Shown piece after piece: positions 23,643 through 45,178 of a stretch of DNA of 64,000 nt; the first letter of the stretch is position 1, and each line of letters opens with the position of its first letter. The notes beneath the pieces are model-generated. The model was not told the DNA's origin. It saw nothing but the letters and a program-made list of their open reading frames with translations, and did not search any database. This DNA is from Halapricum salinum (GTDB taxonomy: Archaea; Halobacteriota; Halobacteria; Halobacteriales; Haloarculaceae). The stretch covers positions 1,852,887 through 1,916,886 of the forward strand of contig NZ_CP031310.1 of assembly GCF_004799665.1 (NCBI RefSeq). The letters run 5' to 3'. Made by a program: the position numbers and the translations under genes.

Positions 23643-23649
23643 AGACCCC

Positions 23650-25984: not shown

Positions 25985-26074
25985 TGATGCGTGCGGCGTC
26001 GGTGGTCGGCGACCCGAGCAAAGTATAATGATTAAACATGTCAATTGGTGCAGCCGAAATAAGGGGGTGTCGGC

Positions 26075-27669: not shown

Positions 27670-27923
27670 ACCAGGCGGAGACGAGCGGGCTGTGCGACGG
27701 GCGCGTGCGGTATGCGGCTTGAAGCGATACACCACGGAGACACCGCATCGCGTCGGGCGAGAAATCACCGCGTTGCAGTCAGAGATCACAACGATGCAGC
27801 AACACAGTTCCAAGACGACGCACACGCACGGACCGGCGCAGTGCCGGAATGCAAGTACCCAGCAGCGGCGGGGCCGATGCGGAGTCGGCCAGCCGGGTGC
27901 AGCTGCCACCGGAGGTGGTGGCG

Positions 27924-28553: not shown

Positions 28554-28605
28554 TGTGGCAGCGCTGACGAGGCGGTGACAGCGGAGCAACCACTCCGTTT
28601 CGGGG
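28443..28605 (+). repeat. RdfA-tail repeat, copy 1 (within intact gene)
   Basis: The segment from GGTGCAGGCCGAGTGCGG through CGGAGCAACCACTCCGTTTCGGGG is shared in large part with 35166-35325, and its first 80 bases also with 33013-33090. It covers the zinc-finger tail of the RdfA-family gene and about 50 bases beyond the stop. All three copies are in the same orientation. Confidence 0.75.
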
Positions 28606-28657
28606 AGAGCGATAGACGGTGTAGTTGTGACGGTGTATTCAATGGAGCAGGTATAAT

Positions 28658-31600
28658 TTAAGTATCTTCTATTAGTGACGCTGCATTATTTTTAATTTGC
28701 ACAGCAGAATTGGCACCGATTCCTTTCACTTCTTGTAATTGTTTGGGAGTAAGGTGTTGTAAATCCTTGACTGACTGTACGCCAGCAGTTCGTAACCGGA
28801 AACCGATCTCTCGGCCGATTCCGTCAACTTGATACAGAGTGCAGATCGCGTCTGAGTCCGGCCGTTCCTCCAATGGTGACTCTGGGTCTGACTCGAAGGG
28901 AGAATCCTCCTGTGATTTCATTAACTCCTCAACAACGGTTGCAGATGCCAGTTGTTCAAGCGTTAGGAGCGGGGTCGATTTGAGGTCGTCAGGTGTCGGA
29001 ACGAAATCTATATTTCGGGACGTTGATTCAGCGTGGTATCTGAGATCGCCAGGCCGGTAATCAACGTTGCCTTCCTGGAGATACTTCAGCCCCTGATATG
29101 GTTCATCAGAGGGGTCATGTGATTGCTTGGCAATCCAATCGAGAAGTTCTTCAGAATCGATCGTCGAGAACCCTAAGCGAGCAAGACAGACGATGTGGAC
29201 TGCACCATCAACGATGTTCTGCCAAAGGTCATGGGACGAATCGAGTTGGGTTCGGTACTCAACGAGTGATTCTAGGAGATAGGCGCCGGTTTCGTACCGA
29301 CGATTAATGAGCGAGCGATATGCCAGCATCTGGAGCAATAATGGTTTGGCATCCGCACTGATAACCAATTCCCCGTACGTTTTGAGGGCATGACCCTGTA
29401 GGGTTGGCTTATCCTTGGGGATCTTTCTAAGTAAATCGTTTGTCGCTTGGTGTGGTCCGTTCATCCAAGGCTCAGACAAGGGCGCTTGTATATACCAGCT
29501 GATGACTTCGCGCACATTCTGACGCATCCCCTCTTCGTCGAATTCGAAGTCAGGAAATTCAGTTGTGAAGTGGTCAAGGAGAAACTCGAGATGATTTTTC
29601 TTCAGATTCTGATCAACGGATGGAATGGCCCAGGTTTCACCTTCTAGGTGATCAGAATCGACTGGAATACCTTCAAACAGAATGCGAAGTTGAGTCATTC
29701 GGAGTTCGATATCCTCTGGCCGCCGAGTGATTGCTTTTTCATAGGCATCGACTGCGCCATTTGGGTTGTCGTCTTCTATTTCAAGACTCGCGAGACGGAT
29801 GAATGGAGCTGCTTCGTCAGTGGTTTTTCCGGCAGTGATGTAGCTCTCTCTGGCTCTACTTAAGTTCCCCTTCTTCCTGTATAAATTCCCTAATTGTAAC
29901 GCTGCGTAGCTATTGTCTTCGGAGTACTCAAGGGCCTGCTGGAACTGGCGGATGGCGTCCTCTATCTCACCCTTGGATTGTGCGAGCCTCCCCAACTCCA
30001 CGTAGGCTCGTACATGCTCGGGATCGCGCTCGAGCGCCCTTTTGAACTTCTCTTGTGCGGTTTCTTGATCACCCGTTTTCAGAAGTGCTTCTCCCCAATA
30101 AACGAAGTCTTTCGCTGTAAGGGCGTGATCCAAACCAGCCCACCTATCGATATATTCGAATTTATCCAGAGCAGGTTCCCATCTTTTACTACGGGCTAAC
30201 AATACAGCGTACTCAATGACAACATCTTCGTCGAGCCCCCACTCCGGATCGGGATTGAATGGTGTGTCTGGATCGATCGGGCTATGATAGCTTCCGATAA
30301 CCTCGGCTAAATGCTGAGAAGCAATTTCAAGATTATTTTGAAGAAGATGAATAACACCAAGGTACGCCTGAGAGACAGTTGGCGGAGTCTCTGCTGACTC
30401 AATAACACTCTCCAGTTTTAGTTTTGCATCTTTGACTTCTCCTAATTGCATGAGATAGCGTGCTGCTATGGTCTGGGCTATCTGAGTTGTATCTGCCTGC
30501 TCGACAAACGCATCCAGACAGTCCCGAATCAGTTCCAATTCCTCTTGTGAATGATCCGATATCGGCGTAACATAACTTTCGAGTCGTTTGTCATTTGGAT
30601 CGAATCGATAGTGCTTCCTTGGTTTCTGGGCGTTACTTTCCGATAAATAGTCTGACATCCTGTGATGTGAACTAATACGTTTCTGTGGAGGCCCCCCCAC
30701 AAGATATTCGAGGAACTTGATCCTGACCGCAGATAGATACGATATTTGTGCTTTCCACCGCCATCGAGCGTCAACTTCTGTTTTTCGTAGCTCAGTGCTG
30801 CTGACATAGTTTCCAAGCGATTCAATTGCAAATGCGGCGAGCGGTTCATATATCGAATTAACTGGTTCCGGGATGGCCGCAAGTACGGCAGACGAAATAT
30901 GGAACTTTTCTATATTCTCTGGGGGCGGAACTTCCCACTGCACAAGTGGTTCCCCACGCTGTATCCAACCCGCCTGTTCTAGTGCTTCAAGATGAGGTTC
31001 GAGACGATCGCCCGGATTGTCATAGCAAAACACTTCTCGATAGATACCTTCGATGAGGGGTACCGTAGGTGCAATTCCCAAGTCAGAGAGGATTCGAATC
31101 GCATCGAGGACGGCCGTTTGTTGTGGATCTCGGTCTCGGAGGTTCTGGTAGTGATAGGACCAGATATCGATATCTGCGGCGGTTACACCGTCATCATCGT
31201 CCGACTGAAGTTCTTGAAACTTTCTGACAATTGATAACGGTGTTGCGGAAGTATACCCGATAGACTGACTAGAGTCAACTTCTATGTCCAGTGATTCCTT
31301 GACGTGCATCCTGAACTCGCCGAGAGCGGCGTTATCTTGGAATTGCTGGAGTTGTATCTGCTCAAACTCTCTCCAGAACCCTTCCGGATCATTGACGTCA
31401 CCGGGCATTTTTCGAAGTTGCTCCGATCTGGCGGTTATGAAAATACTGAGTGATGTTTTGGTATCCTTTAGTTGGTCATCGAGTTTTAGTACTGCATCCC
31501 TGACAACCCGATTATTTGTTGTTGGGTCTACGCCGTGAACATCATCCCAAACAAACATGATATGTCCTTCGAACGATTCGTCAACGAGCACATCTAGCTC

Positions 31601-32374
31601 GCTCGTATCGGTCAATGATGGTCGAGGAATGACAATCTGATCAACATCAGAGGACTGACGAATGAATTCGATGAGTGTCCTGGTTTTTCCGACTCCTTTC
31701 GGCCCAGTTATCAGTACCCGGTCACTCGGCGCTATCGGAGGGACGCCCTCACGGTCAAAATAGTCGATCTCCGGGAGCCCATCGGCCAGTACCCGAACCG
31801 CCCGCTCCTTGCCTCTCCTGTCACCGTCGAAAAGATGATAATATTTTGTTCGCTCGAGACGAGCCTGGATTCTCTCAATTTCAGCATCGACCTCTGAAAC
31901 CTGGTCACGAAGGTTATCCATGGAACGATAACCGAGCAGGGTTGCTCTATCTGTCCCAGCGATACGGTTCTGAAACGTGTGAATCGCCTGAGCGTACGAT
32001 TCAGAAACTGCCTGCATCAATTGACGGTGCAGGTCGGGGTGTTGCGCTGGGTCGATCCGATGCGCGCGCTCTATAGCGCCGACTATTTCCTCAACAGCGT
32101 CTGCTTCGTCCTCGAACATCACCTCATCAATATCATCTAGTTCCTCTGCGACGGGGGTCCAATCATCTGTAATTACCTCTAGTTCAGGGAATTGACTGTA
32201 GTCAATCTCTCTCTGTATCGACTTTTGTAGCGTTTGATTGAATTCAGTTCCAAGAGCTTCGATATCTCCAGAAAATTTCTCTTCTACAAGTTTCTCACGA
32301 TACTTTTTGACACCCTTTTCTGCCCCCCGTTCCAATCCCGCTGAGGCGAGAGCGACAGCAAGTGATCCCAGCAT
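28658..32374 (-). CDS. STAND-like P-loop ATPase with TPR repeats and C-terminal helix-hairpin-helix
   Basis: The 1238-aa protein has an N-terminal helical region, Walker A GPKGVGKT (224-231), Walker B IMFVWDDVHG (about 272-281), a sensor-like ITARSEQLRK, then helical repeats including several clear TPRs between about 690 and 900 (EPALDKFEYIDRWA, AQEKFKRALERDPEHVRAY, IEDAIRQFQQALEYSEDNSY). The last 60 residues form a helix-hairpin-helix domain (DGIGREIGFRLRTAGV, TPKQLQEVKGIGANSA). NTPase plus repeats plus a terminal module is the plan of STAND immune sensors. The terminal HhH would bind DNA. No nuclease domain is seen, so an Avs-like role is only a hypothesis. Confidence 0.7.
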   Translation of the reverse strand: MLGSLAVALASAGLERGAEKGVKKYREKLVEEKFSGDIEALGTEFNQTLQKSIQREIDYSQFPELEVITDDWTPVAEELDDIDEVMFEDEADAVEEIVGAIERAHRIDPAQHPDLHRQLMQAVSESYAQAIHTFQNRIAGTDRATLLGYRSMDNLRDQVSEVDAEIERIQARLERTKYYHLFDGDRRGKERAVRVLADGLPEIDYFDREGVPPIAPSDRVLITGPKGVGKTRTLIEFIRQSSDVDQIVIPRPSLTDTSELDVLVDESFEGHIMFVWDDVHGVDPTTNNRVVRDAVLKLDDQLKDTKTSLSIFITARSEQLRKMPGDVNDPEGFWREFEQIQLQQFQDNAALGEFRMHVKESLDIEVDSSQSIGYTSATPLSIVRKFQELQSDDDDGVTAADIDIWSYHYQNLRDRDPQQTAVLDAIRILSDLGIAPTVPLIEGIYREVFCYDNPGDRLEPHLEALEQAGWIQRGEPLVQWEVPPPENIEKFHISSAVLAAIPEPVNSIYEPLAAFAIESLGNYVSSTELRKTEVDARWRWKAQISYLSAVRIKFLEYLVGGPPQKRISSHHRMSDYLSESNAQKPRKHYRFDPNDKRLESYVTPISDHSQEELELIRDCLDAFVEQADTTQIAQTIAARYLMQLGEVKDAKLKLESVIESAETPPTVSQAYLGVIHLLQNNLEIASQHLAEVIGSYHSPIDPDTPFNPDPEWGLDEDVVIEYAVLLARSKRWEPALDKFEYIDRWAGLDHALTAKDFVYWGEALLKTGDQETAQEKFKRALERDPEHVRAYVELGRLAQSKGEIEDAIRQFQQALEYSEDNSYAALQLGNLYRKKGNLSRARESYITAGKTTDEAAPFIRLASLEIEDDNPNGAVDAYEKAITRRPEDIELRMTQLRILFEGIPVDSDHLEGETWAIPSVDQNLKKNHLEFLLDHFTTEFPDFEFDEEGMRQNVREVISWYIQAPLSEPWMNGPHQATNDLLRKIPKDKPTLQGHALKTYGELVISADAKPLLLQMLAYRSLINRRYETGAYLLESLVEYRTQLDSSHDLWQNIVDGAVHIVCLARLGFSTIDSEELLDWIAKQSHDPSDEPYQGLKYLQEGNVDYRPGDLRYHAESTSRNIDFVPTPDDLKSTPLLTLEQLASATVVEELMKSQEDSPFESDPESPLEERPDSDAICTLYQVDGIGREIGFRLRTAGVQSVKDLQHLTPKQLQEVKGIGANSAVQIKNNAASLIEDT

Positions 32375-32430
32375 GGTAATCTAACGGATATCCTCATATA
32401 AAAAACTCCACTCCATTGAAATGGTAGTGT

Positions 32431-32720
32431 TCAGATTAGCTGATTCCATGCGACGGCGAACGATCGAAACCAATCATCGGCTATCTCTGCTTCGCCGTTG
32501 CTGAACCAGTGTGAGAACGAAAAAGTACGTCGTTTTCACTCACGAAAGACACGTTCGACACTATTCCGATTTCCATGGCGTTCGTATCTGAAATCGAGGC
32601 CGTGTCGTGAGCAGGCGTCTTTCAGTGAGAGCGACCCGTCGATGAGAAACAGGGCGTCATTGACGTCGCGGAACGTAGCGGCGGTGAAATCTACGGCGAC
32701 GAATTTCTGGTAGCCAATGG
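32431..32720 (-). pseudogene. C-terminal remnant of an ISH DDE transposase
   Basis: The minus-strand frame reads FRDVNDALFLIDGS, ACSRHGLDFRYERHGNRNSVERVFRE, a stop at 32536-32538, then KRRTFSFSHWFSNGEAE and SFAVAWNQLI before the terminal stop. This matches the end of haloarchaeal DDE transposases, including the catalytic-Glu region ERVFRE. The internal stop and missing 5' part show it is dead. It is joined in frame to a pentapeptide-repeat fragment upstream. Confidence 0.7.
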
Positions 32721-33010
32721 CGGCGTCGGTCAGGTCGGCGTTACGGAAGGAGACTTTAGAGAGGGTGTTTCCGGTACCGGTGAGGGTTGCGTGGATGAGC
32801 GCTGTGTCGTCGAAGGTGGCGCCGGTGAGCAGGGTGGATTCGAAGCCAGCCCAGTGGAGATCGGCGTCCTCGAAGACGGCGTTCTGTAGTGCTGTGTCTT
32901 GGAACTAGGCGTGGCGGCCGTCGATATCGGTGAGGCCGGCAGCTTCGAGTTCATAGTCGTGCAGCGTAGCGTGGAAGAGTGACTGCTTGGTGAGGTCGGC
33001 ACCGTCATTG
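32721..33010 (-). pseudogene. pentapeptide-repeat protein fragment
   Basis: The same minus-strand frame upstream of the transposase remnant has A(D/N)LxxA(x)F repeats: GADLTKQSLFHATL, LQNAVFEDADLHWAGF, LLTGATFDDTALIHATL, SFRNADLTDAA. There is a TAG stop at 32905-32907 within it and no start codon before it meets an RdfA-tail fragment at 33010. It is the broken remainder of a pentapeptide-repeat gene. Confidence 0.75.
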
Positions 33011-33012
33011 TG

Positions 33013-33117
33013 TCGGTGCAGGCCGAGTGCGGTGTCTGCGGGGAGGACCACGCCGTCGAAGCCGTGATCTACGGGGTGCGCCCGGCCCAGACGAATGCGG
33101 CGACGCTGGAGTCCTGA
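33013..33117 (+). repeat. RdfA-tail repeat, copy 2 (orphan fragment)
   Basis: The plus strand encodes VSVQAECGVCGEDHAVEAV followed by a degenerated finger (YGVR in place of CGVC) and a stop. It has no gene body. The first 80 bases match the end of the RdfA-family gene at 28443. Confidence 0.75.
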
Positions 33118-33315
33118 ACGTCGTTGAGTGGGCTTTCTTTCGTTTTTTTGCAGCCGGTGACTGCCAGGAGGGGTTGTGGGTGGCTGTGTTTCGGTGGTGT
33201 TGGGTTGTGGTCGGTTGGTGGGTTGTTGTCGCGGGGGATGGTGCCCACCGGGAGTCAGGTGATAGTTGTCGTGAGCAGTATTTTGAAGTCAGTGACATGT
33301 GTGGTGTTGTCGTGT

Positions 33316-35025
33316 ATGCCGGAGTCGATTGCGCAGTATATTGAACAGGTGGCGGGGACGCATCGGCCACGCGGGCACACCGTGTTGCCTGACGGGACAG
33401 TCGTGGTTGCAGTGTATCGGGACGGTGCGTACGAACTCTGGACGCCTGATGGGTGTCTCACAGACACTGATGAGGACGTTGTGTCACCGCGCTGGGATTC
33501 GAGTCGAGAGGTTTTGCTTGCGTTACGCGATGAGGAGGGTGCTGAACGATACGACTTGGTGGAAGTAGATCCGGAAACCGGCGCTGTCACGCCGATTTTG
33601 GCCGACGAATTTCTCGTGACGAATCCGCAGTCACAGCCAGCGAAAGGTGAGAAAATCGCGTTTGTGTCGAACCGAGATCAATCACTTGACCTGTACACGG
33701 TCGATCGCGACGCTGGAGGTGTCGTGAAACACTCCGAAACGGCCGAATCTGTCCGTGGATACGCGTGGGCGCCGGACGGCAAGCAGCTGGTGTATCAAGC
33801 TGGCCTGATCGACGGGGCGGCCTTGCGTCTCGTGGACCTGCGTGCAGGCACTGACGAGGTGTTGTTCGATGAACCAGAGTCAGAGCAGTCACTCGCGTAT
33901 ATTGACGGTGGCCGCGGTGCGTGGTCGGACACCGGGATTGTATTCACCACAAACCACGCGACTGGGTACCGGGAAATCGCGGTCGGTGACACTGACGGTA
34001 GCTACGATGTCGCGTTTACGAACGAACGGGATAAATACGACCCACGGTGGACCGCGACGGGGGACATCGCGTTTGTCGAAAGCCGGGGTGGGAATCGAGT
34101 ACTGCGTCGGTTCAACGGCAGCGATGTCACGACACTTGAAGACCACGGGATGAATATAGATCTGACTGCCACCGCGGACGGCGTGTCGTATGTGCATCTC
34201 TGTACGGCGACAGCGGGAGATATTCGTCGGAACGGTGCTGTCCTGCGTGAAGATGAGCAGGTGACATTCCCGACAGCAACTCCGCAAGAGGTTACCTACG
34301 ACACACGGGATGGTGTCGAGATTGCCGCACGGTTGTACACGCCAGCTGAACAAGCGGATGCGGCCATTGTCTTCCCGCACGGTGGGCCGCCTGCCCAGCA
34401 CTACAATTGGCTGAATCCCGTGCCGCAAGCGCTGGTATACGCTGGGTTCGAGGTCTTGGCACCAGATTACCGCGGCAGTATCGGGTACGGACGTGCGTTC
34501 CGGAAAGCCAGCGACGGCGATCTCGGTGGCTGTGATCTTGACGATGTTGTGGCTGGCGCCGAGTTTCTGCGTGCCCGGGGTCACGACAGCGTCGGGATCG
34601 CTGGGATGTCCTATGGTGGCTACCTGACGCTGATGGGGGTTGGCGCGACCGACGCGTTCGATGCCGGGGCGAGTATCTGCGGCGTCGTCAACTGGGAAAC
34701 CGCTGCTGAAAACGCTCGCCAATTTCTCGGTGACTACTTAATCCGGAAACTCGGCGGGACGCCTGCGGAGAACCCGGACCTGTACCGCGAGCGCTCACCG
34801 ATCCACTACGTTGCCGAGATCCAGGATCCGTTGTTCATCGTGCAAGGACGCAACGATCCACGGGTCCCTGAAGGGCAGGCTGAAGAACTGGTGTCATCGC
34901 TCCGCGATCGCGATATTCCGCACGAGTACCTGCTATTCGAAGACGAGGGCCACGAAATCACGTGCACAGAGAACCGCGTCAAGATGGGTAATCAACTCGT
35001 CTCCTTCTTCGACGCACACCTCTGA
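33316..35025 (+). CDS. S9 family peptidase (acylaminoacyl-/dipeptidyl-peptidase type)
   Basis: The 569-aa protein has an N-terminal beta-propeller (WDSSREVLLALRDEEG, AWAPDGKQLVYQAG, DKYDPRWTATGDIAFV) and an alpha/beta-hydrolase domain with catalytic Ser432 (GMSYGG), Asp514 (GRNDPRVP) and His546 (EGHEI). Oxyanion-type HGGPPAQ is present at the usual place. I start at the ATG at 33316 because the upstream in-frame extension from a TTG at 33124 is hydrophobic, GT-rich and unlike the family. No signal peptide, so it acts in the cytoplasm on short peptides. It lies between two RdfA-tail repeats. Confidence 0.88.
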   Translation: MPESIAQYIEQVAGTHRPRGHTVLPDGTVVVAVYRDGAYELWTPDGCLTDTDEDVVSPRWDSSREVLLALRDEEGAERYDLVEVDPETGAVTPILADEFLVTNPQSQPAKGEKIAFVSNRDQSLDLYTVDRDAGGVVKHSETAESVRGYAWAPDGKQLVYQAGLIDGAALRLVDLRAGTDEVLFDEPESEQSLAYIDGGRGAWSDTGIVFTTNHATGYREIAVGDTDGSYDVAFTNERDKYDPRWTATGDIAFVESRGGNRVLRRFNGSDVTTLEDHGMNIDLTATADGVSYVHLCTATAGDIRRNGAVLREDEQVTFPTATPQEVTYDTRDGVEIAARLYTPAEQADAAIVFPHGGPPAQHYNWLNPVPQALVYAGFEVLAPDYRGSIGYGRAFRKASDGDLGGCDLDDVVAGAEFLRARGHDSVGIAGMSYGGYLTLMGVGATDAFDAGASICGVVNWETAAENARQFLGDYLIRKLGGTPAENPDLYRERSPIHYVAEIQDPLFIVQGRNDPRVPEGQAEELVSSLRDRDIPHEYLLFEDEGHEITCTENRVKMGNQLVSFFDAHL

Positions 35026-35165
35026 CACCAGTATCCAGCGTCACAGCCAGAGCAGACCGGATTTCCGCACGGTATTATAACCCCTGAACAAGCCTCAATC
35101 CCTCCTTCAGATTCGATCCCGGTCACCGCTGGAAGCCGGCCTTGTGAACCAGACGCAGTCACCGG

Positions 35166-35325
35166 TCGGTGCAGGCCGAGTGCGGGGTCTGCGGCGAGGA
35201 CCACGCCGTCGAAACCGTGATCTGTGGAACGTGCCCGGTCCAAACCACGGCGGCGACGCCGACGCAGTCACGGCAGTGACGTAACCGCGCGGACACGGGG
35301 CTGACAACGGAGCAATCACTCCGTT
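35166..35325 (+). repeat. RdfA-tail repeat, copy 3 (orphan fragment)
   Basis: The plus strand encodes VQAECGVCGEDHAVETVICGTC, a stop, then the same post-stop block (ACGGAGCAATCACTCCGTTT) found after the intact gene at about 28580. The gene body is absent. It is the closest match to copy 1. Confidence 0.8.
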
Positions 35326-35699
35326 TCGGGCGAGTATATCGAAGTTTGGCGATGTCGCCATGTGGATCTGCATCCGCGACATCCAAGATTTGTGTTGTTA
35401 TTTTTTCATTATGTGGTCCGGATTCAGAGCTGTATCTGGTATGGAGTGCTCAATCATGGCCTAATCGGCGGCAGAAAGTTAGCTGTTCAAGTCTCTTATC
35501 CATATTGGTAGAGGAACTAATATTCTCGGAAAGGGGTCGAGATTAGTCTGTGAGAATCTTTCGTCGTGTCACTCGAAGGATGTGAATGTGTGCGACGGAG
35601 GTGGATTCAGGAATTCTAGTTGATGACACTGGGAGTCAAGAGATTCAGTGATTGCCCTGATGAGAGTTCCGATAGTACAGGGAGCAGGAAGGAAGGTAG
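35326..35699. other. non-coding stretch downstream of PCNA-like gene
   Basis: About 370 AT-richer bases. There is an 8-base inverted repeat, GATGTCGC near 35351 and GCGACATC near 35376. No open frame or recognisable terminal inverted repeat matching the right side of the transposase module was found. Confidence 0.4.
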
Positions 35700-36449
35700 C
35701 TATTTACTGCGCTGGTAGTGGTGTAGACTCCCGACATTGTTGCTGAAGCTATATCGGAATCCGATCAAATTCTCGTTGATAAGCAGTTCTATCTCGCCCA
35801 CTGATGGGAATTTGCAAATCACTTCTGTGAGTGGATAGAGATTGTATACCTGCTCGGTTTCGGCACGATCTGGGGAGGAGGTTAGATACTTTGTAAGGTC
35901 AAATATCGCCTTTGTGGTTACTCCCTTTGTAACGAATTTCACCGTATGCTCACTGATTTTCAGTGTGAGTGGCCCCGACGGTGCTAGTTGGAAGTATTTC
36001 CGCAAGGTATCTGAGGGGATGGACGCTTTAAGTTTGATATCGTTCATCGGCAGGTACTGTTGTTTAAGAACGATATCTGGCGCCCCTATACTCTTCGACA
36101 TATGATAACGAAGAGTGTCACTTTGGATTGTTATATGGTCTTTCTCTGGGTTGATTTTGATTCTGACGTCACGTCCATCGGTGCTAGCACCAAAGCCTCT
36201 AGTCTTGGGTACCTCAGTTAAGATATCAGGATGATTGCCACCGGTAGCTACGTTGGCATTCAACCGGACAACAGACAGCCTGGTCGGAATGGCTGGCGAA
36301 TCTTGTCCATATAGCCGGATTTCTTCACCGATCTCCCATTTGATGTGGCCAGCGATACCCTCAGCTCGGCTCATCTCGGAGTAGACTGACAATGGCCGGA
36401 TCATTCGTCGGTACGATGTCAGATCAAGTTTGGTGGTCATTGGGTTCAT
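35700..36449 (-). CDS. PCNA-like sliding clamp homologue paired with a transposase
   Basis: The protein is 249 aa, the usual size of archaeal PCNA, and follows its order of elements. There is an N-terminal helix LDLTSYRRMIRPLS, strand RLSVVRLNANV, RDVRIKINPEKDHITIQSD, an interdomain connector near VLKQQYLPMNDIKLKASI, then SDTLRKYFQLA, LTLKISEHTVKFVT, and a C-terminal half with YNLYPLTEVICKFPSVGEIELLI and IGFRYSFSNNVGSLHHY, which parallels the FSLDYLKDMNKAIP and IAEGNGTVTYML regions of real PCNA. Sequence is highly diverged. It overlaps the transposase gene by 4 bases (ATGA), so the two are translated together. A clamp function is inference from layout. Confidence 0.55.
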   Translation of the reverse strand: MNPMTTKLDLTSYRRMIRPLSVYSEMSRAEGIAGHIKWEIGEEIRLYGQDSPAIPTRLSVVRLNANVATGGNHPDILTEVPKTRGFGASTDGRDVRIKINPEKDHITIQSDTLRYHMSKSIGAPDIVLKQQYLPMNDIKLKASIPSDTLRKYFQLAPSGPLTLKISEHTVKFVTKGVTTKAIFDLTKYLTSSPDRAETEQVYNLYPLTEVICKFPSVGEIELLINENLIGFRYSFSNNVGSLHHYQRSK

Positions 36450-38311
36450 ATGTGGGGCTGAGGGCGACGAGCAAACGTTGATTCAATGATGCCTGTTAAC
36501 ACGTCGTAGTGTTTTGGTTGAAGTGGCAGTCCAAGGTTTGGGGATACAGATTGGCTAATTATTTTATGTATATTATAAAATGCGGATGCTATATTGAGAA
36601 TGAATGTCTGTTCCAGGCCGGACAGATGCGCCATCTCAGGTGAATGATCATGTTTTAATTGTCTGATGTGTGTTTCAGCTGACCATCGGTCAGGGTATTT
36701 TGCGGCAAGCTGAGAGATCGTTGTTTTATCCATCGGCATGCCGCTGATGAGCATAAATTCATCATCCTCTTCTTGTAACACATGTCTTTGACTATCTCTG
36801 TCAATCTCTTTCCAAAATGCGTTTACCTCGGATTTGTCGATCGAGATTACTGCTTGCCCGTCTTTTTGTAACTCGTGATATTCCTCTTTCTCGACGATGT
36901 CGCGGTGGTTTTTTAACCGAATAATCCATGTCTCTTCAGCAGCGGTGCGGAACAAATCGATGATTTCAGCGCCATTAAATTCCCTGTCAGCGAGAACCCA
37001 CCCGATCTCCGAAACATCCTCTATGAGAGCTATCATCTCCCAAATAGACTTCGGTAGTGCCGACTTCTCGGTTAATAAATCCACCCCGAAGGATAGTCTC
37101 GACATCGGGGTGAAACTAACTCCTGTGGAGATGTAGAAGCCACCATTCTCCTCGACTTTGACAGTCCCCATCGCTCCTGGGACATCTTCCGGTTCAGCAC
37201 CTTCATCGATTGGAATCCAAGTCGGATCGAAAGTAAGATCCAGCGGGGTCGAAAAGAAATCCAATTCTTCGTCAGCAAATTGGATCAGATTCTGGCATAG
37301 CTTTGTGCCGATACGATTAATTCTTTGTTTTGATTGATAGAAATCCCCTTTCGCAATATTGTCGCGGATTACCTGCCGGAAGCGACTATATGTTATGAGG
37401 TCATCTTGGAATTGTAATTGCGCGCGACGCTCACCTTTGTTGAAAGTCCCGTCTACAGCCCACTTTGCAAGTGCAGCAATAATCTCTCGAATTGAATACT
37501 TCGCATTTTCTGCCCTATTAAACGAGATATCCTCTGTCAGATGAGCTAATAGTAAGTCACAATAATTCACAAGTGCGCGGTATCGGAGATCATCGGGTAG
37601 GCTCTCTCCCAGAGGTATCGCTTGATTGACCGTGTACTCAGCGCCTGACAGGGTCTCTGTTAATAACCCGTTACGGTATAGAGCATGTTTGAGGCGGCGG
37701 ATCGCGTTTTGTACTGATGGTTTATTTAGTCCGTATTGTGTGCGAGCCTTCGAGAGGGTGCTTTCACTGAGACCGTGATTGATATCGAGTCCATATGCTT
37801 GGCGTGAGCTGGGGTTATCTCTGAAATATTTGAGTAAATTCTTAGTCGATCCAAGTTCTCGTGTCTGCCCGAAGATCAACGCAGACACACGGGCAGCAAG
37901 GATCGGGTCTTCTGGCAGTGTTTCTTCCTCCTGCTCAAGATAGACCGGTATCACGTCTTTGATGGCTTCGTCTATCAACTCTCTGTCAATATCATCAACT
38001 GCATTGTGCGCAGCAAATTGTGACTCGATCAACCTAATGTCATCAAGTGAATTAATTGACTTCACTGGATACTCGATCTCGATGCAGTCACCGTACACGC
38101 GATTAATTTGACGGATATCTACTCTATCTCCTATCTCGTACAGCAAGTCAATCGATTGCTGTTGATCGATATCTACTGGGAGCTGAGAGACGATGGGATC
38201 GTGCTTGGTCGCAGGTACGCCAGTAGTCTGAGTCATCCGGAGTCGGTTATGTGATACATAGGGTTCGTAATCCATAATATTAATGTATTTAAAGAAGTTA
38301 TGCCTCAGCAT
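36446..38311 (-). CDS. DDE transposase with IS4-type YREK signature
   Basis: The 621-aa protein has catalytic acids at Asp362 (TFDPTW), Asp442 (VLADREFNG) and Glu546 in the complete Y(2)R(3)E(6)K signature (Tyr539, Arg542, Glu546, Lys553), which identifies the IS4 superfamily. It is longer than usual because of about 300 N-terminal residues with a helical, possibly DNA-binding region (GLSESTLSKARTQYGL). The annotated start lies only 5 bases from the divergent gene; MDYEPY at residue 13 or MTQTTG at residue 26 may be the true start. No terminal inverted repeats were found. It is co-translated with the PCNA-like gene. Confidence 0.8.
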   Translation of the reverse strand: MLRHNFFKYINIMDYEPYVSHNRLRMTQTTGVPATKHDPIVSQLPVDIDQQQSIDLLYEIGDRVDIRQINRVYGDCIEIEYPVKSINSLDDIRLIESQFAAHNAVDDIDRELIDEAIKDVIPVYLEQEEETLPEDPILAARVSALIFGQTRELGSTKNLLKYFRDNPSSRQAYGLDINHGLSESTLSKARTQYGLNKPSVQNAIRRLKHALYRNGLLTETLSGAEYTVNQAIPLGESLPDDLRYRALVNYCDLLLAHLTEDISFNRAENAKYSIREIIAALAKWAVDGTFNKGERRAQLQFQDDLITYSRFRQVIRDNIAKGDFYQSKQRINRIGTKLCQNLIQFADEELDFFSTPLDLTFDPTWIPIDEGAEPEDVPGAMGTVKVEENGGFYISTGVSFTPMSRLSFGVDLLTEKSALPKSIWEMIALIEDVSEIGWVLADREFNGAEIIDLFRTAAEETWIIRLKNHRDIVEKEEYHELQKDGQAVISIDKSEVNAFWKEIDRDSQRHVLQEEDDEFMLISGMPMDKTTISQLAAKYPDRWSAETHIRQLKHDHSPEMAHLSGLEQTFILNIASAFYNIHKIISQSVSPNLGLPLQPKHYDVLTGIIESTFARRPQPHI

Positions 38312-38314
38312 AAC
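38286..38314. promoter_or_regulatory. shared promoter with palindrome between transposase and divergent gene
   Basis: TATTTAAA at about 38285-38292 is a TATA box about 27 bases before the plus-strand ATG at 38317. The perfect palindrome GTTATGC-CTCA-GCATAAC (38297-38314) covers the expected transcription start and contains the minus-strand ATG. A protein bound there would block both directions. Confidence 0.6.
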
Positions 38315-38316
38315 GC

Positions 38317-39006
38317 ATGACCTTGCTCAATGCGACGGATCGTCCGAAAGGTGTCCTGACCACTGAGGACCGGCAGTACTTGTTCGGAGACCTCGATATG
38401 AGTTCGTACAGTGACCCCGAAAATGCAGTCAAACAACGACGCCATCGGATTCGGCGGCGACTCGAACACGCGCTCCTTGATTTAGTTGTAGTGAATAACC
38501 TGCTCTCAGGTCGCGACCAAGCCCAGATCTTCAACTCGATCCAAGAGTCAACGGAGCGAGAGCAGTTTGAACATATTATGAGTGAACTCTTCGACTTCTT
38601 ATACGCAAACTTGCCGGTAGGCCACCGAGAGGCATGCGCATCACTTGGACTCGCTAAAGCGTATCACCGCGGGACTTTGATCGGGACTGGCGGCAATTTC
38701 AACATCCGTCCCACAGTCAACATCGAAATATCTGATCAGATGTCACCTGCTGAATTTGACCACGAAGCAAATATCGCCCGCTACCACGCTGACATAGAGC
38801 GGGTCTCGGAAGCCACCCCCAACGCTGTAGAGGCATCATCTGAGACACCTGAAAATGAAGAGGAACGTCAGAATTCTGCTGATCTATTTCGTTCACCAAT
38901 GAAGAACCATGGGTATGACCCCGAAGAAGTACGCCATGACAATCGCGCGACGGTCTACCAACAGCGAATCGAATTCCTCGACGTCCTCGACAAGTGGCAG
39001 GTCTAA
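38317..39006 (+). CDS. haloarchaeal conserved hypothetical protein, 229 aa
   Basis: The N-terminus ATDRPKGVLTTEDRQYLFG and the following basic helix ENAVKQRRHRIRRRLEHALLD are typical of a haloarchaeal family of unknown function that often occurs on plasmids and islands. The rest is helical and acidic with NNLLSGRDQAQIF, ASLGLAKAYHRGTLI and a Glu-rich C-terminal part. It is divergent from the transposase/PCNA-like pair across a palindrome, which makes it a candidate regulator of that module. Leaderless start supported by the TATA box. Confidence 0.65.
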   Translation: MTLLNATDRPKGVLTTEDRQYLFGDLDMSSYSDPENAVKQRRHRIRRRLEHALLDLVVVNNLLSGRDQAQIFNSIQESTEREQFEHIMSELFDFLYANLPVGHREACASLGLAKAYHRGTLIGTGGNFNIRPTVNIEISDQMSPAEFDHEANIARYHADIERVSEATPNAVEASSETPENEEERQNSADLFRSPMKNHGYDPEEVRHDNRATVYQQRIEFLDVLDKWQV

Positions 39007-39061
39007 AATAACACCCAGATTCCGACTCCCTGTCTATTCGACTAAGTGAATCGATAGAACG

Positions 39062-40105
39062 TTACAGCCACGAAAGGCCAGTGTTGAGGTCCTCGAGGAA
39101 TGATGCCCGGATCTGGGCGTCAGGGGGGAACGAGAGTTGGTCGCCGTCCCGGTCGAGGATGGTTTCGCGGAGGAAGGGATGTGCTGGGTCGAAAGAGGGG
39201 CTGGTCTGTATTCGGTAGTTGCTGTCGATAGTGAACAGGGCGGCGTCGAACGCGCGGTGATGCAGCGCGTTCAACACGAGGACGTTCTCAGGGTGTTCGG
39301 CTAACTCGGGGCGTTGACTCCGGGGAAGGACGTGCGCGAGATCCAGCAGGTCCGCTTCTTCGATCCCGGTCATGGTGCATGCGTGACCGTAGCGGTCGAA
39401 GGTGTCCGCTCTGAAGGCGTCACTCACGCCGGTCTCAGTAGTCTCGTAGCGGCGAACCCGACCGCTTTGCTCGAGGATCTCTCCGGTCGGCCACTGGGCG
39501 ACGTCGCCTGTTTCGACCCAGCGCTGCCAGACAGCCGGGGCGCGATCATTGTCGTTCATTTGGGCGCGGTCATGCAGCCACGCGACCGGGACCGACTGGG
39601 TGTTTAGAACCGAGAAATGGAAGAGGTAGTTCGGAATCTGTGTGCCGGTGTCGTCCTGGTAGGAGCAGACCTCGAAGCGATCCGGGACGCACAGCCCGCA
39701 GAATTCGACGACGCCTGATTCCGGTTTCCGGAAGACCAGGACTGGCGGGACCTCCTCACGCTGACCGGCAGCGGCCCGGTCGAACGCGGACTTGATTTTC
39801 TGGTTGTTCGGGGAATCATCGTACGGGTTGTCAGCTTTGGCGTCGCCCCAATAGCTGATGTAGCCGGCGTTGACGGCCAAGGTATCCTCCCAGGGATCGT
39901 CGTGCTGGGAGATACCGCTGTCGTTCGAGATGAGCACGAGCGCCGCAGGGATCTCAGACCGATCCGCACCGAGGTCACGGATCCCGCCCGTGTTTTTGAT
40001 GCCGCTGTCGAGTGAACCGCGAATCCATCGGAGGAATTGGTCATCAGGGTTCCGGTAGCTCCCGGTGTCGCGGTATTGCTGCCCCACTCGAAAGGCATGC
40101 TGCAT
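39062..40105 (-). CDS. HNH restriction endonuclease-like protein
   Basis: The 347-aa product has a C-terminal HNH_2-type nuclease domain: ACTMTGIEEADLLDLAHVLPRSQ, then HPENVLVLNALHHRAFDAALF (about residues 255-310). The N-terminal 220 residues (begins AFRVGQQYRDTGSYRNPDDQF, RSEIPAALVLISND) look like a recognition domain of the kind fused to HNH in modification-dependent enzymes. It stands alone without a methyltransferase. A type IV-like restriction role is likely but the recognised base is unknown. Confidence 0.75.
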   Translation of the reverse strand: MQHAFRVGQQYRDTGSYRNPDDQFLRWIRGSLDSGIKNTGGIRDLGADRSEIPAALVLISNDSGISQHDDPWEDTLAVNAGYISYWGDAKADNPYDDSPNNQKIKSAFDRAAAGQREEVPPVLVFRKPESGVVEFCGLCVPDRFEVCSYQDDTGTQIPNYLFHFSVLNTQSVPVAWLHDRAQMNDNDRAPAVWQRWVETGDVAQWPTGEILEQSGRVRRYETTETGVSDAFRADTFDRYGHACTMTGIEEADLLDLAHVLPRSQRPELAEHPENVLVLNALHHRAFDAALFTIDSNYRIQTSPSFDPAHPFLRETILDRDGDQLSFPPDAQIRASFLEDLNTGLSWL

Positions 40106-40150
40106 GATACCACGTTATTTCGTCCGGCAGTAACTAATAGGTCGGCCCAG

Positions 40151-41407
40151 TTAGCACGTCCACGAGTCACGCAGGTTCCGTCGCCACGTCTCACCGAGGT
40201 CAGGTGCCATCGCATCGTAGCCTTTCTGGCGCAACTCCGCAGCGAACTCGTTGCAGCGGTCGCCGTGATTGACGAGGATCTCGGCGCTGCGGTAGTCATC
40301 CAGAAAACTCCGGAGCCCTCCGCGGTCAGCGTGCGCGGAGAAATCGTAGGATTCGACCTGCGCAGCGACAGGCATGTGGTGCCCATCAATCTCAGCAGAC
40401 CCTGTATCGAGGAGTTCCCGGCCGGGCGTGCCTTCGACCTGATAGCCGGTGAGCGTGATTTTGTTCGTTGGTCGGTCAGCGATCTCCGGAATATAGCTCA
40501 TGGCCGGACCACCGGATAGCATGCCGCTGGTCGTCACGATTGCTGTGTTCTCCTCGGCGATCCGCCGTCGCTGCCCATCCCGGCCGGAGACGAACCTGGC
40601 ATGTGACTTTGCGCGTTGCAGCGCATCGGCGTCACGGACGAAACCCGGATACTGGCGCAACATCTGGGTCACCTGTTGTCCCATACCGTCAACGTAGCAC
40701 GGGATATCGTAGCGATCGCAAATCAACAGCATCTCCTGCGTACGCCCAATCGCGAACGCCGGGATAACGACGGTCCCGCCTTCCCACAGCGTCGTCTTCG
40801 CACTTTCCGCGAATCGCTCTTCAACCACGCCTCTAGCATCGTGGTCAACGTCAGAATACGTGCTTTCACAGATCACGACGTCCGCGTCCGGACGGGCTGT
40901 CGTCCCTGTGACGAGCCGTTGGTCATCAGTGTGGAAGTCTCCGGTGTAGAGGAGTCGTGTTTCACCGTCATCGACGAGAACGTGTGCGCTTCCGGGGATG
41001 TGTCCGGCGTTGAAGAAGGTGATTTCGTGGCCAGCGGCCTCAAAGGAGTCGCCGTAGCCGTGGGGATGCGAAACTTCGCCGATTCGGTGGACATCTTCCT
41101 CAGTGAACGGGCACTGCATTGTCCCACCATGTAACTTCAAAGTGTCCCGAGCAAGCGTGCGCGTAAGATCACGCGTCGGTGGTGTCCAGTGAATCTCTGG
41201 CCGGTCGTCCCCCGAGAGCAATGTAGGGACCGCTCCGGCGTGGTCGAGATGCCCGTGGGAGACGACAACGGCGTCGGGAGCAACGTCGCCGACAGGATAC
41301 TGGGTGGGCGTCTCGGTTTTCAGACCGTAATCCAGTAACAGCGAGTCGTTGACGAGAACGGCGCTCCGCCCGACCTCGCCGGCACCACCAAGGAACTGGA
41401 TCTCCAT
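40151..41407 (-). CDS. MBL-fold beta-CASP RNA nuclease (mRNA 3'-end processing/RNase J-like), intact copy
   Basis: The 418-aa protein has the metallo-beta-lactamase motif SHGHLDHAG (His51, His53, Asp55, His56), HIPGSAHVLV and LLYTGDFH, and a beta-CASP domain with VVIPAFAIGRTQEML, ATSGMLSGGPAMSY-like segment, FSAHADRGG and VNHGD. Such enzymes process or degrade RNA. The last 125 residues are closely similar to a truncated copy at 44105-44476. This intact gene lies within the accessory region on the opposite strand and probably compensates for the broken one. Confidence 0.88.
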   Translation of the reverse strand: MEIQFLGGAGEVGRSAVLVNDSLLLDYGLKTETPTQYPVGDVAPDAVVVSHGHLDHAGAVPTLLSGDDRPEIHWTPPTRDLTRTLARDTLKLHGGTMQCPFTEEDVHRIGEVSHPHGYGDSFEAAGHEITFFNAGHIPGSAHVLVDDGETRLLYTGDFHTDDQRLVTGTTARPDADVVICESTYSDVDHDARGVVEERFAESAKTTLWEGGTVVIPAFAIGRTQEMLLICDRYDIPCYVDGMGQQVTQMLRQYPGFVRDADALQRAKSHARFVSGRDGQRRRIAEENTAIVTTSGMLSGGPAMSYIPEIADRPTNKITLTGYQVEGTPGRELLDTGSAEIDGHHMPVAAQVESYDFSAHADRGGLRSFLDDYRSAEILVNHGDRCNEFAAELRQKGYDAMAPDLGETWRRNLRDSWTC

Positions 41408-41592
41408 CTGTGGTCACTAGCAGGCTGAAACGTTTGGCTTCGTCGGTACGATTCGACTCTCGAACCGACCCACTGCTGTGAGGAGCGAATTATTGCCTGT
41501 TACAGTTAGGTGGCTTTCCGTAACAGCATTTGAGTGGCCGATATAGTACTTATTGTAGCGCAACTATTAGTGCTAACTAGTGAGGACGACTC

Positions 41593-41784
41593 GTGCCCCG
41601 AACAAAGATCACCAAGACGGTCACAGAGCGTGACGATCGTGATGACATCGAACAGTATCGGACAACAGTCCCCAAGCAAGTCGTAGAACTACTCGATTTG
41701 GAGGGCGCCAGTCTCGACTGGGAGGCAAAATCTCGAAACCGGATCGAGCTCACGATCACTCGCAACGAGGACGATGAGCAGTGA
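41593..41784 (+). CDS. AbrB/SpoVT-like antitoxin-type DNA-binding protein
   Basis: A 63-aa frame from GTG with DDIEQYRTTVPKQVVELLDLEG followed by two strands (LDWEAKSRNRIELTITR) matches the swapped-hairpin AbrB fold. It overlaps the recombinase gene by 11 bases. In haloarchaea an AbrB-like protein often precedes a small serine recombinase and probably regulates or assists it. Confidence 0.65.
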   Translation: MPRTKITKTVTERDDRDDIEQYRTTVPKQVVELLDLEGASLDWEAKSRNRIELTITRNEDDEQ

Positions 41785-42472
41785 CAAACCAGTCGCCGCG
41801 GGATACGTTCGCCTCTCACAAGATGGCGAGAGCCTTCCGGACCAGCGCGCGGCCGTCAACGAATATGCAGAGGCTGAGGGGTTCCAGCTGGAGCTGTACG
41901 ATGAAGGCCGGTGGGAAAGCGGATTTGATTCGGAGCGTGACGAATATCAGGAGCTTCTCGACGATGTGCGCAGCGGACGGATTGCGGCGATCATCGTTCC
42001 GAAGCTTGACCGACTGTCCCGCGATCGGAAAGACCGACTGCGGGTGCTCCTGGAAATGGATTCACTCGACGTTCCAGTACACTCGGTACGCTTAGGGCGC
42101 GCAGTAGATCTTGACGACGACCATGCGCTGATTGTCGAAGCTGCGCGAGCTACTGGTGATGACGTACAGAAGCGAGCCGAAATCGAAGCAGCGACAGCAA
42201 AAACCCAACAGCGCGTGGCACGGGGTGCTTGGCATGGACGGCCCCCGCACGGCTGCCGCGTCACTGCGAACGGGGAGAGCATCACTCACGGTGACGCTTG
42301 GAGCGAGACTGAAGAGATTCTCGCACTGCGCGAAGCCGGCCTTTCATACCGGGAAATCGAGGGAATCACAGGAGTGAATTACCAAACAGCACGACGAGTT
42401 TGTAGTCGATGGGGGATCCTATCGCTCCTGCGAGGACCACTTGAGGAGTATCGACCGGCGGTTGTGAAATAA
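41774..42472 (+). CDS. small serine recombinase (resolvase family)
   Basis: The 232-aa protein has the resolvase catalytic domain: AAGYVRLSQDGESLPDQRAAV with nucleophile Ser15, IIVPKLDRLSRDRKD with the conserved Arg residues, and LDVPVHSVR. After the long E-helix a C-terminal helix-turn-helix (LREAGLSYREIEGITGVNYQ) binds DNA. It could invert, resolve or integrate DNA. It sits near the right edge of the accessory region and is the only recombinase of this class in the window. Confidence 0.85.
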   Translation: MSSDKPVAAGYVRLSQDGESLPDQRAAVNEYAEAEGFQLELYDEGRWESGFDSERDEYQELLDDVRSGRIAAIIVPKLDRLSRDRKDRLRVLLEMDSLDVPVHSVRLGRAVDLDDDHALIVEAARATGDDVQKRAEIEAATAKTQQRVARGAWHGRPPHGCRVTANGESITHGDAWSETEEILALREAGLSYREIEGITGVNYQTARRVCSRWGILSLLRGPLEEYRPAVVK

Positions 42473-42513
42473 GACCTACTGTCTGATGGTATCATAATAT
42501 TGGTAATAATATT

Positions 42514-43293
42514 TCAGTTCCAGTACGCAAAGGAGTCGATATCTGCCACATTTATCTCGCGGGTTCCCTCGTCGGAATGAGGGAGTCGTAGAAGATTCTG
42601 TGCAAGCTCACGCTCTGCATCGCGGCGCTTAGTCCGAGCGTCGGTGACACACTCTTCTACAGCGGAAAGGCTGTAGTCGTCCGCTAGTTCAGCTGCTTCT
42701 TCAAGAGTGACTATTGTGCGCGAGTTCTGAATGCATTCTCGGAGCTCACGCAACTCTGTAGCTTTGGTATTTAACTTGGCTTCAGTTCCGACACCCATTG
42801 AGGCGGCAAGCTCCCGGGCAGATTCTCGAGAGTCGATGTCGTCAGCGAGAGCTTCGACTATCCTTTCTTTAAGATTCTGTGGATATTGCTGTCTGATTGC
42901 TACCTTTTGGACTGTAGCCTCGGCCGTGAGGTTAGATCCCGTCCCAGATTGATGTTCGTTTAGACGAGAGTTGAAAGCCTCTGTACGTCCGACGTAGTAA
43001 ACAGTGTTCGCGGCGTCAGCGAATACCTTCCATGAGGGAATGTGCTCCCGTTTCTCTCTCGGTACGGCTGCGTCGTATACCGTCGCCTGGTGATAATATC
43101 GATGGCGAAATGCGTATTTCGGAACCTCAGTGAGGGGGTAATCTCTAGACTTCAACGAGAGACGGGGTTCGTACAGCAGGGGGAGTTGCCACTCAGGTTC
43201 GCACTTGAGCGCGTATACCTCGTAGATACAGTCGTCGAGCGTGTGCCGAAAGGTCGATCGAATGGACTCGACATTCATAGAAGCAGAAGCCAC
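42514..43293 (-). CDS. GIY-YIG-like nuclease domain protein
   Basis: The 259-aa protein has a variant GIY-YIG motif: NTVYYVGRTEAFNSRLNEHQSG (described as VYYVGRT, Arg and His of RLNEH) at about residues 95-118, and a later acidic NLKERIVEAL that could supply the metal-binding Glu. N-terminal 90 residues are unassigned; the C-terminal 100 are helical. It is 6 bases after the upstream gene and thus in one operon with it. Probably a nuclease of a mobile or defence unit. Confidence 0.65.
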   Translation of the reverse strand: MASASMNVESIRSTFRHTLDDCIYEVYALKCEPEWQLPLLYEPRLSLKSRDYPLTEVPKYAFRHRYYHQATVYDAAVPREKREHIPSWKVFADAANTVYYVGRTEAFNSRLNEHQSGTGSNLTAEATVQKVAIRQQYPQNLKERIVEALADDIDSRESARELAASMGVGTEAKLNTKATELRELRECIQNSRTIVTLEEAAELADDYSLSAVEECVTDARTKRRDAERELAQNLLRLPHSDEGTREINVADIDSFAYWN

Positions 43294-43299
43294 GAAAAT

Positions 43300-43875
43300 T
43301 CACCCCTGGTTTTCGAATCCATGTTGGACTGATTCGACGAAATCGACGGTTTGTTTTGCCTGCTGGATTTTCGGCCGTACTTCGTTACTCATCTTCCCAC
43401 CGTAGGTTCCCCGAGCAATCCGCATTCGGTCGGAAGCATCGTCCCACGTGTATCGGGGGTTTTCGGACAATACGAACGCGACGAATTCCCGAGGTGAAAG
43501 AACGGTTTCCTGTTGTAATCGACGAATCTCACCTCGGATGGCGCGGAGGTAAGCGTCTGCCCAATCGGAGAGGGCGTTCTCGTAGAACTCTTCTCGTGGA
43601 TAATCCCCCGTGAGCCCGACCTCAAGATTCCCTGTCAATTGAGGTGGTTCGTCGCCGAAATCACGTAATGGATCAAGCTCGCGCATTTTGACGTATTCTT
43701 CTCCGAAATGTGAACCGTACGACGCTAGGTCGTCTTGGAGATTCTCGACGATGGGTTCGCCGTTCCAGAGCATGACGAGTTCCTCGTCTGCTTCCTTACG
43801 AGCATCTTCTTCGATGTCGCTCTTGACGTTCTTTGGGAGTGCTGCGAAGACGAGGTCCGCATCATAATTGCTCAT
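43300..43875 (-). CDS. hypothetical protein, 191 aa, operon partner of GIY-YIG gene
   Basis: Starting at the ATG of MSNYDADLVF gives an acidic helical protein; the longer frame upstream runs through two palindromes and is unlikely to be translated. Segments include ALPKNVKSDIEEDARKEADE, DWADAYLRAIRGEIRRLQQE and RIARGTYGGKMSNEVRPKI. I recognise no family. Its promoter region carries two tandem palindromes. The two-gene operon with a nuclease partner could be a toxin-antitoxin or defence pair, which is speculation. Confidence 0.6.
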   Translation of the reverse strand: MSNYDADLVFAALPKNVKSDIEEDARKEADEELVMLWNGEPIVENLQDDLASYGSHFGEEYVKMRELDPLRDFGDEPPQLTGNLEVGLTGDYPREEFYENALSDWADAYLRAIRGEIRRLQQETVLSPREFVAFVLSENPRYTWDDASDRMRIARGTYGGKMSNEVRPKIQQAKQTVDFVESVQHGFENQG

Positions 43876-43917
43876 ATTGGTCGCCTCGTCCGCGTTGCCA
43901 GTCTCGATCATAGCACA

Positions 43918-43964
43918 GGTTTGGCTATGAACCAAACCAACTTTAGTTTTGCCCTGAGCAAAAC
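43918..43964. promoter_or_regulatory. two tandem palindromic operator candidates
   Basis: GGTTTGG-CTATGAA-CCAAACC (43918-43938) and GTTTTGC-CCTGA-GCAAAAC (43946-43964) are perfect inverted repeats of related sequence, centred about 27 bases apart, upstream of the 191-aa gene. Their similarity and spacing suggest cooperative binding of one dimeric regulator. Confidence 0.65.
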
Positions 43965-44104
43965 CGCGTGGATTAGTGACCGTATCTAGATACCCGATCT
44001 CCAAACGCCCCCTTCGGGCTATGAGAGTGGCGCTTTCGGCCTAGAGAATAAAAAAGAAATCATATGAGAGGAAATAGCGATGTACTAGCAGATCTTCATT
44101 AGTG

Positions 44105-44476
44105 ATGCTCTCGGGCGGCCCGGCGATGACCTACGTCCCCGAGATCGCGGACCGACCCGTGAACAAGATCGCCTTCACGGGCTACCAGGTCGAAGGCACG
44201 CCCGGCCGGGAGTTGCTCGATACGGGCAGCGCCGAGATCGACGGCCGTCGGATGCCGGTCGCGGCCCAGGTAGAATCGTACGACTTCTCGGCGCACGCCG
44301 ATCGCGACGGACTGCTCGACTTTCTCGACGCCTATCGAAACGCAGAGATCCTCGTCAATCACGGGGATCGCTGCGGGGACTTCGCGGCCGAGTTACGTCA
44401 GAAGGGCTACGACGCGACGGCTCCGGAACTGGGCGAGACGTGGCGGCGGCGTTTCCGGGATTCCTGGACGTGCTGA
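44105..44476 (+). pseudogene. 3' fragment of chromosomal beta-CASP RNA nuclease gene
   Basis: The frame MLSGGPAMTYVPEIADRP ... FSAHADRDGLLDF ... VNHGDRC ... FRDSWTC corresponds to the last 124 residues of the intact enzyme at 40151-41407. The N-terminal metal-binding half is absent. Upstream sequence becomes AT-rich at once, so the gene was cut at about 44,100 by insertion or deletion at the edge of the accessory region. Confidence 0.85.
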
Positions 44477-45178
44477 TCACTCGTTCACGACTGCTCGGCC
44501 CGGGTGAACCTGCTCGACGAACGCCAGGAAGTTGTCGAACAACTGTTTGGTCTCACAGGCTGCCCGGTAGTTTTCCCCGGTGATCCCCTCGAGGACAGCG
44601 TCGATTCGTTCGTCGTCGAGGTCTTTGCCTTCGGTGACAGTTCGTGCCATCTCCCTGTCGTACTCGGGATGGAACTGTACGGCGAAGACACGACCTTTCC
44701 GGAATCCGTGGATGCCGTAGTCGTTGCGTGCGAACACCGTCGCACCCGGCGGTGCTCGACGGACGTGGTCGGAGTGCGTCGTGAACGCGGTGAAGTCCTC
44801 GTCGATACCCGCAAGCAGCCGACTCTCGTCGGTCCGGTGGATCGTCCGGTAGCCAATCTCGTATTCGCCCATCGCCTCGACCTGCCCGCCGAGGACGTTC
44901 GCCAGTAGCTGGTGACCGTAGCAGATCCCGAGGAAGGGCAGGCCGGCCTCGACGGCCTCGCCGACCCACTCCTTCAGCCGTCCGATCCAGGGTTTATCCC
45001 AGTAGACGGAGGCACTCGACCCCGTGACGACGCAGCCGTCGAACGCGAACGACGAGGGAAGCTCTCCGCTGGGCGCGTGAAACTCGACGAGTTCGGCGTC
45101 GACCTCCCGCTCGAAGTTGCGCCGGGTGTCGGCTGCCGCGTGCGCGGCGTTCAGTAGAGCGATCCGCGGCTCGTCCAT
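44477..45178 (-). CDS. class I glutamine amidotransferase (GMP-synthase-like)
   Basis: This 233-aa stand-alone GATase has the nucleophile motif FLGICYGHQLLA and the catalytic His/Glu pair in VQFHPEYD. It hydrolyses glutamine to supply ammonia or acts as a gamma-glutamyl hydrolase-type enzyme. It is convergent with, and abuts, the broken beta-CASP gene. Substrate is not evident from sequence. Confidence 0.85.
   Translation of the reverse strand: MDEPRIALLNAAHAAADTRRNFEREVDAELVEFHAPSGELPSSFAFDGCVVTGSSASVYWDKPWIGRLKEWVGEAVEAGLPFLGICYGHQLLANVLGGQVEAMGEYEIGYRTIHRTDESRLLAGIDEDFTAFTTHSDHVRRAPPGATVFARNDYGIHGFRKGRVFAVQFHPEYDREMARTVTEGKDLDDERIDAVLEGITGENYRAACETKQLFDNFLAFVEQVHPGRAVVNE

Follow-up and report, generated by a model that had tools for sequence, protein, structure and literature searches.

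An integrative element of haloarchaea that interrupts a beta-CASP nuclease gene and carries an intact copy of it

We analysed a window of 64,000 nucleotides from the genome of Halapricum salinum (G000; 3.45 Mb in one contig, of which the window covers positions 1852887-1916886). The main features of the locus are collected in Table 1. An open reading frame of 124 codons (44102-44476, plus strand) corresponds to residues ~295-418 of a 418-residue protein, which is encoded in full, on the opposite strand, 2.7-3.9 kb inside the right edge of an island. The first-pass annotation had described an island meeting the last 124 codons of a chromosomal gene near position 44,100, with the N-terminal part of that gene missing, and a full-length homologue 3-4 kb inside on the other strand, near a serine recombinase gene. 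Both descriptions are borne out. The fragment aligns without gaps with the 3' end of the complete gene (76% DNA identity over 370 bp), and the homology stops at the 7-bp sequence GATGCTC.

Table 1. Features of the window at the right end of the element (positions are those of the window unless 'contig' is specified)
Feature	Position	Strand	Basis or remark
Right 44.1 kb of the 82.7-kb element	1..44103	.	Junctions, arms
AspBHI-like restriction endonuclease gene with HNH domain	39062..40105	-	45 bp downstream of the carried beta-CASP gene, same strand
Complete beta-CASP gene carried by the element	40151..41407	-	Core altered to CATGCTA (GGC ATG CTA)
Small serine recombinase gene (resolvase domain), probably cargo	41774..42472	+	Not shared with the G077 element
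22-bp inverted arm, right end (GTACTAGCAGATCTTCATTAGT)	44082..44103	.	21/22 identical to the left arm, contig 1814241-1814262
3' fragment (codons ~295-418) of the chromosomal beta-CASP nuclease gene	44104..44476	+	Alignment, synteny with relatives
7-bp core GATGCTC, right copy	44104..44110	+	Left copy at contig 1814234-1814240, outside the window
Core GATase gene next to the element; downstream of beta-CASP in relatives	44477..45178	-	Synteny

The 418-residue protein harbours metallo-beta-lactamase, beta-CASP and RMMBL domains, as does aCPSF1/FttA, and this domain set places it among the archaeal beta-CASP ribonucleases. Its best relatives of solved structure are aCPSF1-type proteins (e.g. 3af5 and 2ycb). 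Unlike aCPSF1/FttA, however, it has only 418 residues, aligns only past the first ~175 aCPSF1 residues (profile positions 176-629 of 631) and scores 247 bits, below the aCPSF1 cut-off of 580. As judged from these profile matches, it is related to aCPSF1 but shorter, devoid of the KH region and outside the aCPSF1 family itself. The haloarchaeal metallo-beta-lactamase of PMC3296008 is a different protein, and that paper was discarded as a source on the present nuclease.

In other members of the genus, the beta-CASP gene is uncut and is followed by a homologue of the GATase gene and by further core genes. The 3' fragment thus sits at the ancestral locus. The opposite half-junction lies 82.7 kb away, outside the window, where codons ~240-297 are present at contig 1814060-1814240; this piece and the 3' fragment are the two sides of a single insertion. 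At the left junction, ACTGCGGG and GATGCTC precede the boundary of the element, and ACTAATGAAGATCTACTAGTAC follows it. At the right junction, the element ends with GTACTAGCAGATCTTCATTAGT, and GATGCTC and TCGGGCGG come next. The element between the two GATGCTC copies measures 82,749 bp (contig 1814241-1896989), and the core that was cut encodes Gly-Met-Leu, at codons ~295-297 of the gene.

The 5' half, which the first-pass annotation proposed to look for at the far end of the island, is therefore present in part only: native codons 1-239 are absent from the whole H. salinum genome. The flank on that side is rearranged. The chromosome to the left of the island does not correspond to the region that adjoins the beta-CASP gene in relatives, where the left-flank genes are located elsewhere, and H. 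salinum has no clear homologue of the gene that precedes the nuclease gene in G003 and G005. Both junctions leave truncated beta-CASP genes, and neither restores a full-length open target gene. This upholds the initial view that the arrangement is not a simple target reconstitution, but the argument then drawn from orientation applies to H. salinum alone: in two other genomes (G077 and G044, see below), carried copy and target point the same way.

The serine recombinase gene pointed out in the first-pass annotation probably does not encode the integrase. The recombinase of the element is very probably a tyrosine integrase encoded near the far end (g16, contig 1816866-1818011) and accompanied by two small open reading frames, g17 and g18. 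The three genes are conserved at the left end of the elements in G077, G044 and G182, and g16 and g17 also in G015; more distant relatives of the integrase are located at other sites. Alignment of five g16 homologues revealed invariant R195, K246, H317 and R320 (the Arg, Lys and His-x-x-Arg positions) and a C-terminal Tyr, and the Pfam Phage_integrase domain was found in four of the five, but not in the H. salinum protein taken by itself. The serine recombinase is a less likely integrase, since it is missing from the sister element of G077. A second tyrosine recombinase (contig 1820676-1821950) was rejected, as no similarity between it and the G015 integrase was detected and its gene lies outside the shared module.

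The organization of the module is reminiscent of the SNJ2-type haloarchaeal tyrosine integrases, whose integrase operon also codes for two small proteins (PMC8371274). Both types have an integrase gene and two small-protein genes at one end, a short shared core and a distribution restricted to haloarchaea; the elements described here target a protein-coding gene, in contrast with the tRNA genes used by the SNJ2 type. The G077 integrase had no match at 1e-20 in a phage collection, and closeness to SNJ2 thus remains a resemblance of layout. Similarly, searches of plasmids, phages and viral contigs gave nothing close to the integrase or the carried gene.

We surveyed 392 genomes of the order, inspected candidates more closely and searched for the arm pattern, which brought the genomes with the GATGCTC cut to nine, in four families (G000, G077, G044, G182, G189, G015, G260, G378 and G452), always at GGGATGCTC. 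Seven of the eight genomes other than H. salinum have elements whose arms are related to those of the H. salinum element. Thus, in G077 (Halorussus litoreus), G044, G189 and G182 (Halobacterium bonnevillei), GATGCTC is followed by GGAAACGAAGATYCGCTAGCAG, related to the H. salinum left arm, and the search with the arm pattern yielded G260, G378 and G452, in each of which the native 5' remnant is decayed and runs up to GATGCTC, with the arm next to it. In G015 (Halomarina rubra), the same core is cut by an element with different arms. The H. salinum arm sequence, searched in 146 genomes of the family, gave its own two ends and one match with three mismatches, nothing more. Left ends with the same type of arm also occur outside the nuclease gene, in G228, G459, G266, G360 and G135, where they adjoin GATGCTC or GATACTC; a possible reading is that they are secondary sites or relics.

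A few other candidates were set aside, as the seemingly split genes of G137, G211 and G192 are compatible with small insertions and that of G219 looks like an internally deleted gene. G327 has an apparently frameshifted beta-CASP gene (3705-4921) and, 6 kb downstream, a diverged extra 3' fragment (10896-11258), possibly an older event at the same gene.

Inverted ends and a 7-bp direct repeat are also what a DDE transposon, or the nearby serine recombinase, might have left, the repeat then being a target-site duplication, and genes for a DDE transposase and for the serine recombinase do lie near the right end of the H. salinum element. We regard this origin as highly improbable. The same 7 bp of the same gene are cut in nine genomes of four families, while ends elsewhere are few and mostly beside GATGCTC; five of the nine cut genomes share the tyrosine integrase near the left end of the element; and the transposase and the resolvase are both missing from the G077 element.

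The elements of G077 and G044 are ~95% identical over ~33 kb, and their hosts belong to different families; on sequence grounds, this shows that one such element has moved between families. In contrast, the 42-kb element of G077 and the 82.7-kb element of H. salinum were found to have in common only the integrase, the two small open reading frames, an HTH protein gene and an intact beta-CASP gene. The last is found 2.4-3.9 kb from the right end in H. salinum, G077 and G044, and its orientation is opposite to that of the target in H. salinum only. In G077 and G044, it is the sole intact beta-CASP copy.

The intact gene might instead be incidental cargo that matches the broken target by coincidence; it could, for instance, belong to a defence cassette together with the AspBHI-like endonuclease gene. 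The endonuclease gene begins shortly downstream of the carried gene on the same strand, so close that the two (39062-41407) could be co-transcribed, and the H. salinum element has several other defence-type genes. We nevertheless consider such a coincidence unlikely. In G077 and G044, the carried gene has other neighbours than in H. salinum and yet stays near the same end. It is moreover a 70-85% identical orthologue of the host genes, nested among them in the tree, and no close orthologue was found on viral contigs or on plasmids, where the best matches are about 32% identical.

The whole-genome search of H. salinum also detected a distant aCPSF1-like paralogue and a second complete copy, copy2 (contig 1802846-1804102), outside the window and 90 kb away from the carried copy, with which it shares 82% protein identity. 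According to the first-pass annotation, a second complete core copy elsewhere in the genome would refute its interpretation. A second complete copy does exist, but it is off the ancestral locus, and no other intact copy accompanies the carried one in G077 and G044. Nor do we take copy2 for the native gene in its former place: it is the 3' fragment that the ancestral neighbours adjoin, and the left-flank genes are elsewhere in relatives. Copy2, with the core GGA ATG CTG, is located between GC-rich chromosome and a 10-kb stretch of lower GC content with a TnpB-like gene (contig 1802846-1814060), and it may be a relic of another element. With copy2 present, H. salinum has no strict need of rescue by the carried copy.

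Phylogenetic comparison of intact and broken genes, another of the checks proposed at the outset, proved informative. In the tree, the native 5' part of G044 falls with its own genus (G028, support 100/99), but the carried copies of G044 and G077 form a group. Over codons 1-237, these two carried copies are 97.9% identical and the native pieces 75.1%. The carried gene has the look of a functional one: between these carried copies, dN is 0.040 and dS 0.44, values that indicate purifying selection. In contrast, the carried copy, copy2 and the broken gene of H. salinum all group within the genus; given this difference from G077 and G044, the gene was probably captured at least twice.

The three related copies of H. 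salinum, together with the rearranged left flank of its island, would also fit a host duplication that came first, with the element landing in a redundant copy and another copy swept into the island later by rearrangement. This sequence of events is quite improbable in our view, because in G077 and G044 the sole intact copy is inside the element and foreign to the host lineage, and because uncut relatives have a single beta-CASP copy each. Among the genomes inspected, extra complete copies are present only where the native gene is cut (Fisher <1e-6, with relatedness ignored).

The idea that the element disrupts a useful gene and brings a replacement, already raised by the first-pass annotation, is our best reading and gains from the cut at the identical 7 bp in eight further genomes, the majority of which have an additional or hybrid intact copy. 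Against it, H. salinum keeps copy2, and in G189 and G015 the native gene is cut and no intact orthologue was found. Thus, the beta-CASP gene is dispensable at least in these two.

The intact genes downstream of the element's left end in G452, G378 and G260 are hybrids, with a carried-like 5' part and a native-like 3' part. The 5' part of G452 is 76% identical to the carried type and 67-69% to natives of its genus; its 3' part shows 71-76% and 84-89%, respectively. In G260, the 5' part is 95-96% identical to the carried type and the 3' part 95% to G266 of the same genus. The switch point is at the core or just past it in all three, and the intact genes of G452 and G378 again have GATGCTC. These hybrids likely arose by recombination between a carried copy and the native 3' fragment, which would have removed the right part of the element.

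All cut genes have the core GATGCTC. In contrast, carried-type intact copies have CATGCTA (H. salinum), AATGCTG (copy2, G077, G044 and G182) or GATGCTG (G260). GGAATGCTG and GGCATGCTA, altered versions of the target stretch GGGATGCTC, would mark candidate immune copies. GATGCTC is present in 20/28 uncut relatives and in none of five carried copies (Fisher p 0.005), but the codon usage of the carried genes themselves predicts only 0.56 in five with this core, their GC3 is lower and most come from one lineage. For these reasons, selection of the altered core for resistance to the integrase is only suggested, and the stronger claim of recoding is weakened, as the alteration is within what the codon usage of the carried genes predicts. 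Among uncut genes, the codons GGG-ATG-CTC (about 294-296) occur in 20 of 28, where codon usage predicts about four.

Both junctions, the direct repeat, the inverted arms, the integrase module, the intact carried open reading frame, the eight further cuts, the passage of one such element between families and the purifying selection on carried copies are the observed parts of the picture. The mechanism that we consider probable is that a tyrosine-recombinase element enters the beta-CASP gene at GATGCTC, disrupts it and carries a whole replacement. The 82.7-kb element would have entered by site-specific recombination, the integrase of its module making the cut and splitting the gene at codons ~295-297. 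The 7-bp core is too short for the gene to be rebuilt at either junction, and the element instead has a whole beta-CASP gene near its other end. In the circular form, the predicted order is beta-CASP, attP and integrase module. The carried copy would be expressed and supply the lost function. As its core differs from that of the target, it should not be a substrate of the integrase, and the altered core would thereby protect it.

The common view of elements that enter protein-coding genes is that they either restore the end of the gene or choose a target that the host can spare. Integrative elements and prophages of the icd type rebuild the end of the gene that they enter. The present elements share with them the site-specific entry of a tyrosine-integrase element into a conserved gene and the apparent preservation of the host function. 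They differ in that neither junction restores the full gene and that a complete, separate gene lies 2.4-3.9 kb from one end of the element. Engineered home-and-rescue gene drives destroy their target at a fixed site and supply an altered, enzyme-resistant copy. The likeness to these, which is one of analogy only, lies in the loss of the target at a fixed site and in an altered copy that the enzyme should not recognize; unlike the drives, the elements have no homing nuclease and no known bias of inheritance, and the alteration of the core may be drift that was inherited.

The integration module and the complete target gene are all that two element bodies, unrelated in other respects, have kept in common. 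This is as expected if losing the target has a cost for which the element compensates. If so, it would account for the stable use of a conserved coding motif as an integrase target, and also for the foreign and mosaic versions of the nuclease gene in haloarchaea. More tentatively, and with rather less confidence than for the mechanism itself, the elements might form a natural disrupt-and-rescue system, in which entry inactivates one conserved gene, a resistant whole copy with an altered core is supplied, and the host gene is replaced across haloarchaea by the element's allele, either whole or with its 5' part joined to a native 3' part.

Other genes of these elements deserve mention. A low-GC stretch of the window (13364-22706) codes for Dnd-type DNA sulphur modification proteins (DndE, a cysteine desulphurase, a DndC-like protein, an SMC-like ATPase and a helicase). 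The element shared by Halorussus and G044 (G077 contig 4, 89343-106232) has an operon coding for very large proteins (1025, 278, 1842, 1816 and 658 residues), possibly a defence system.
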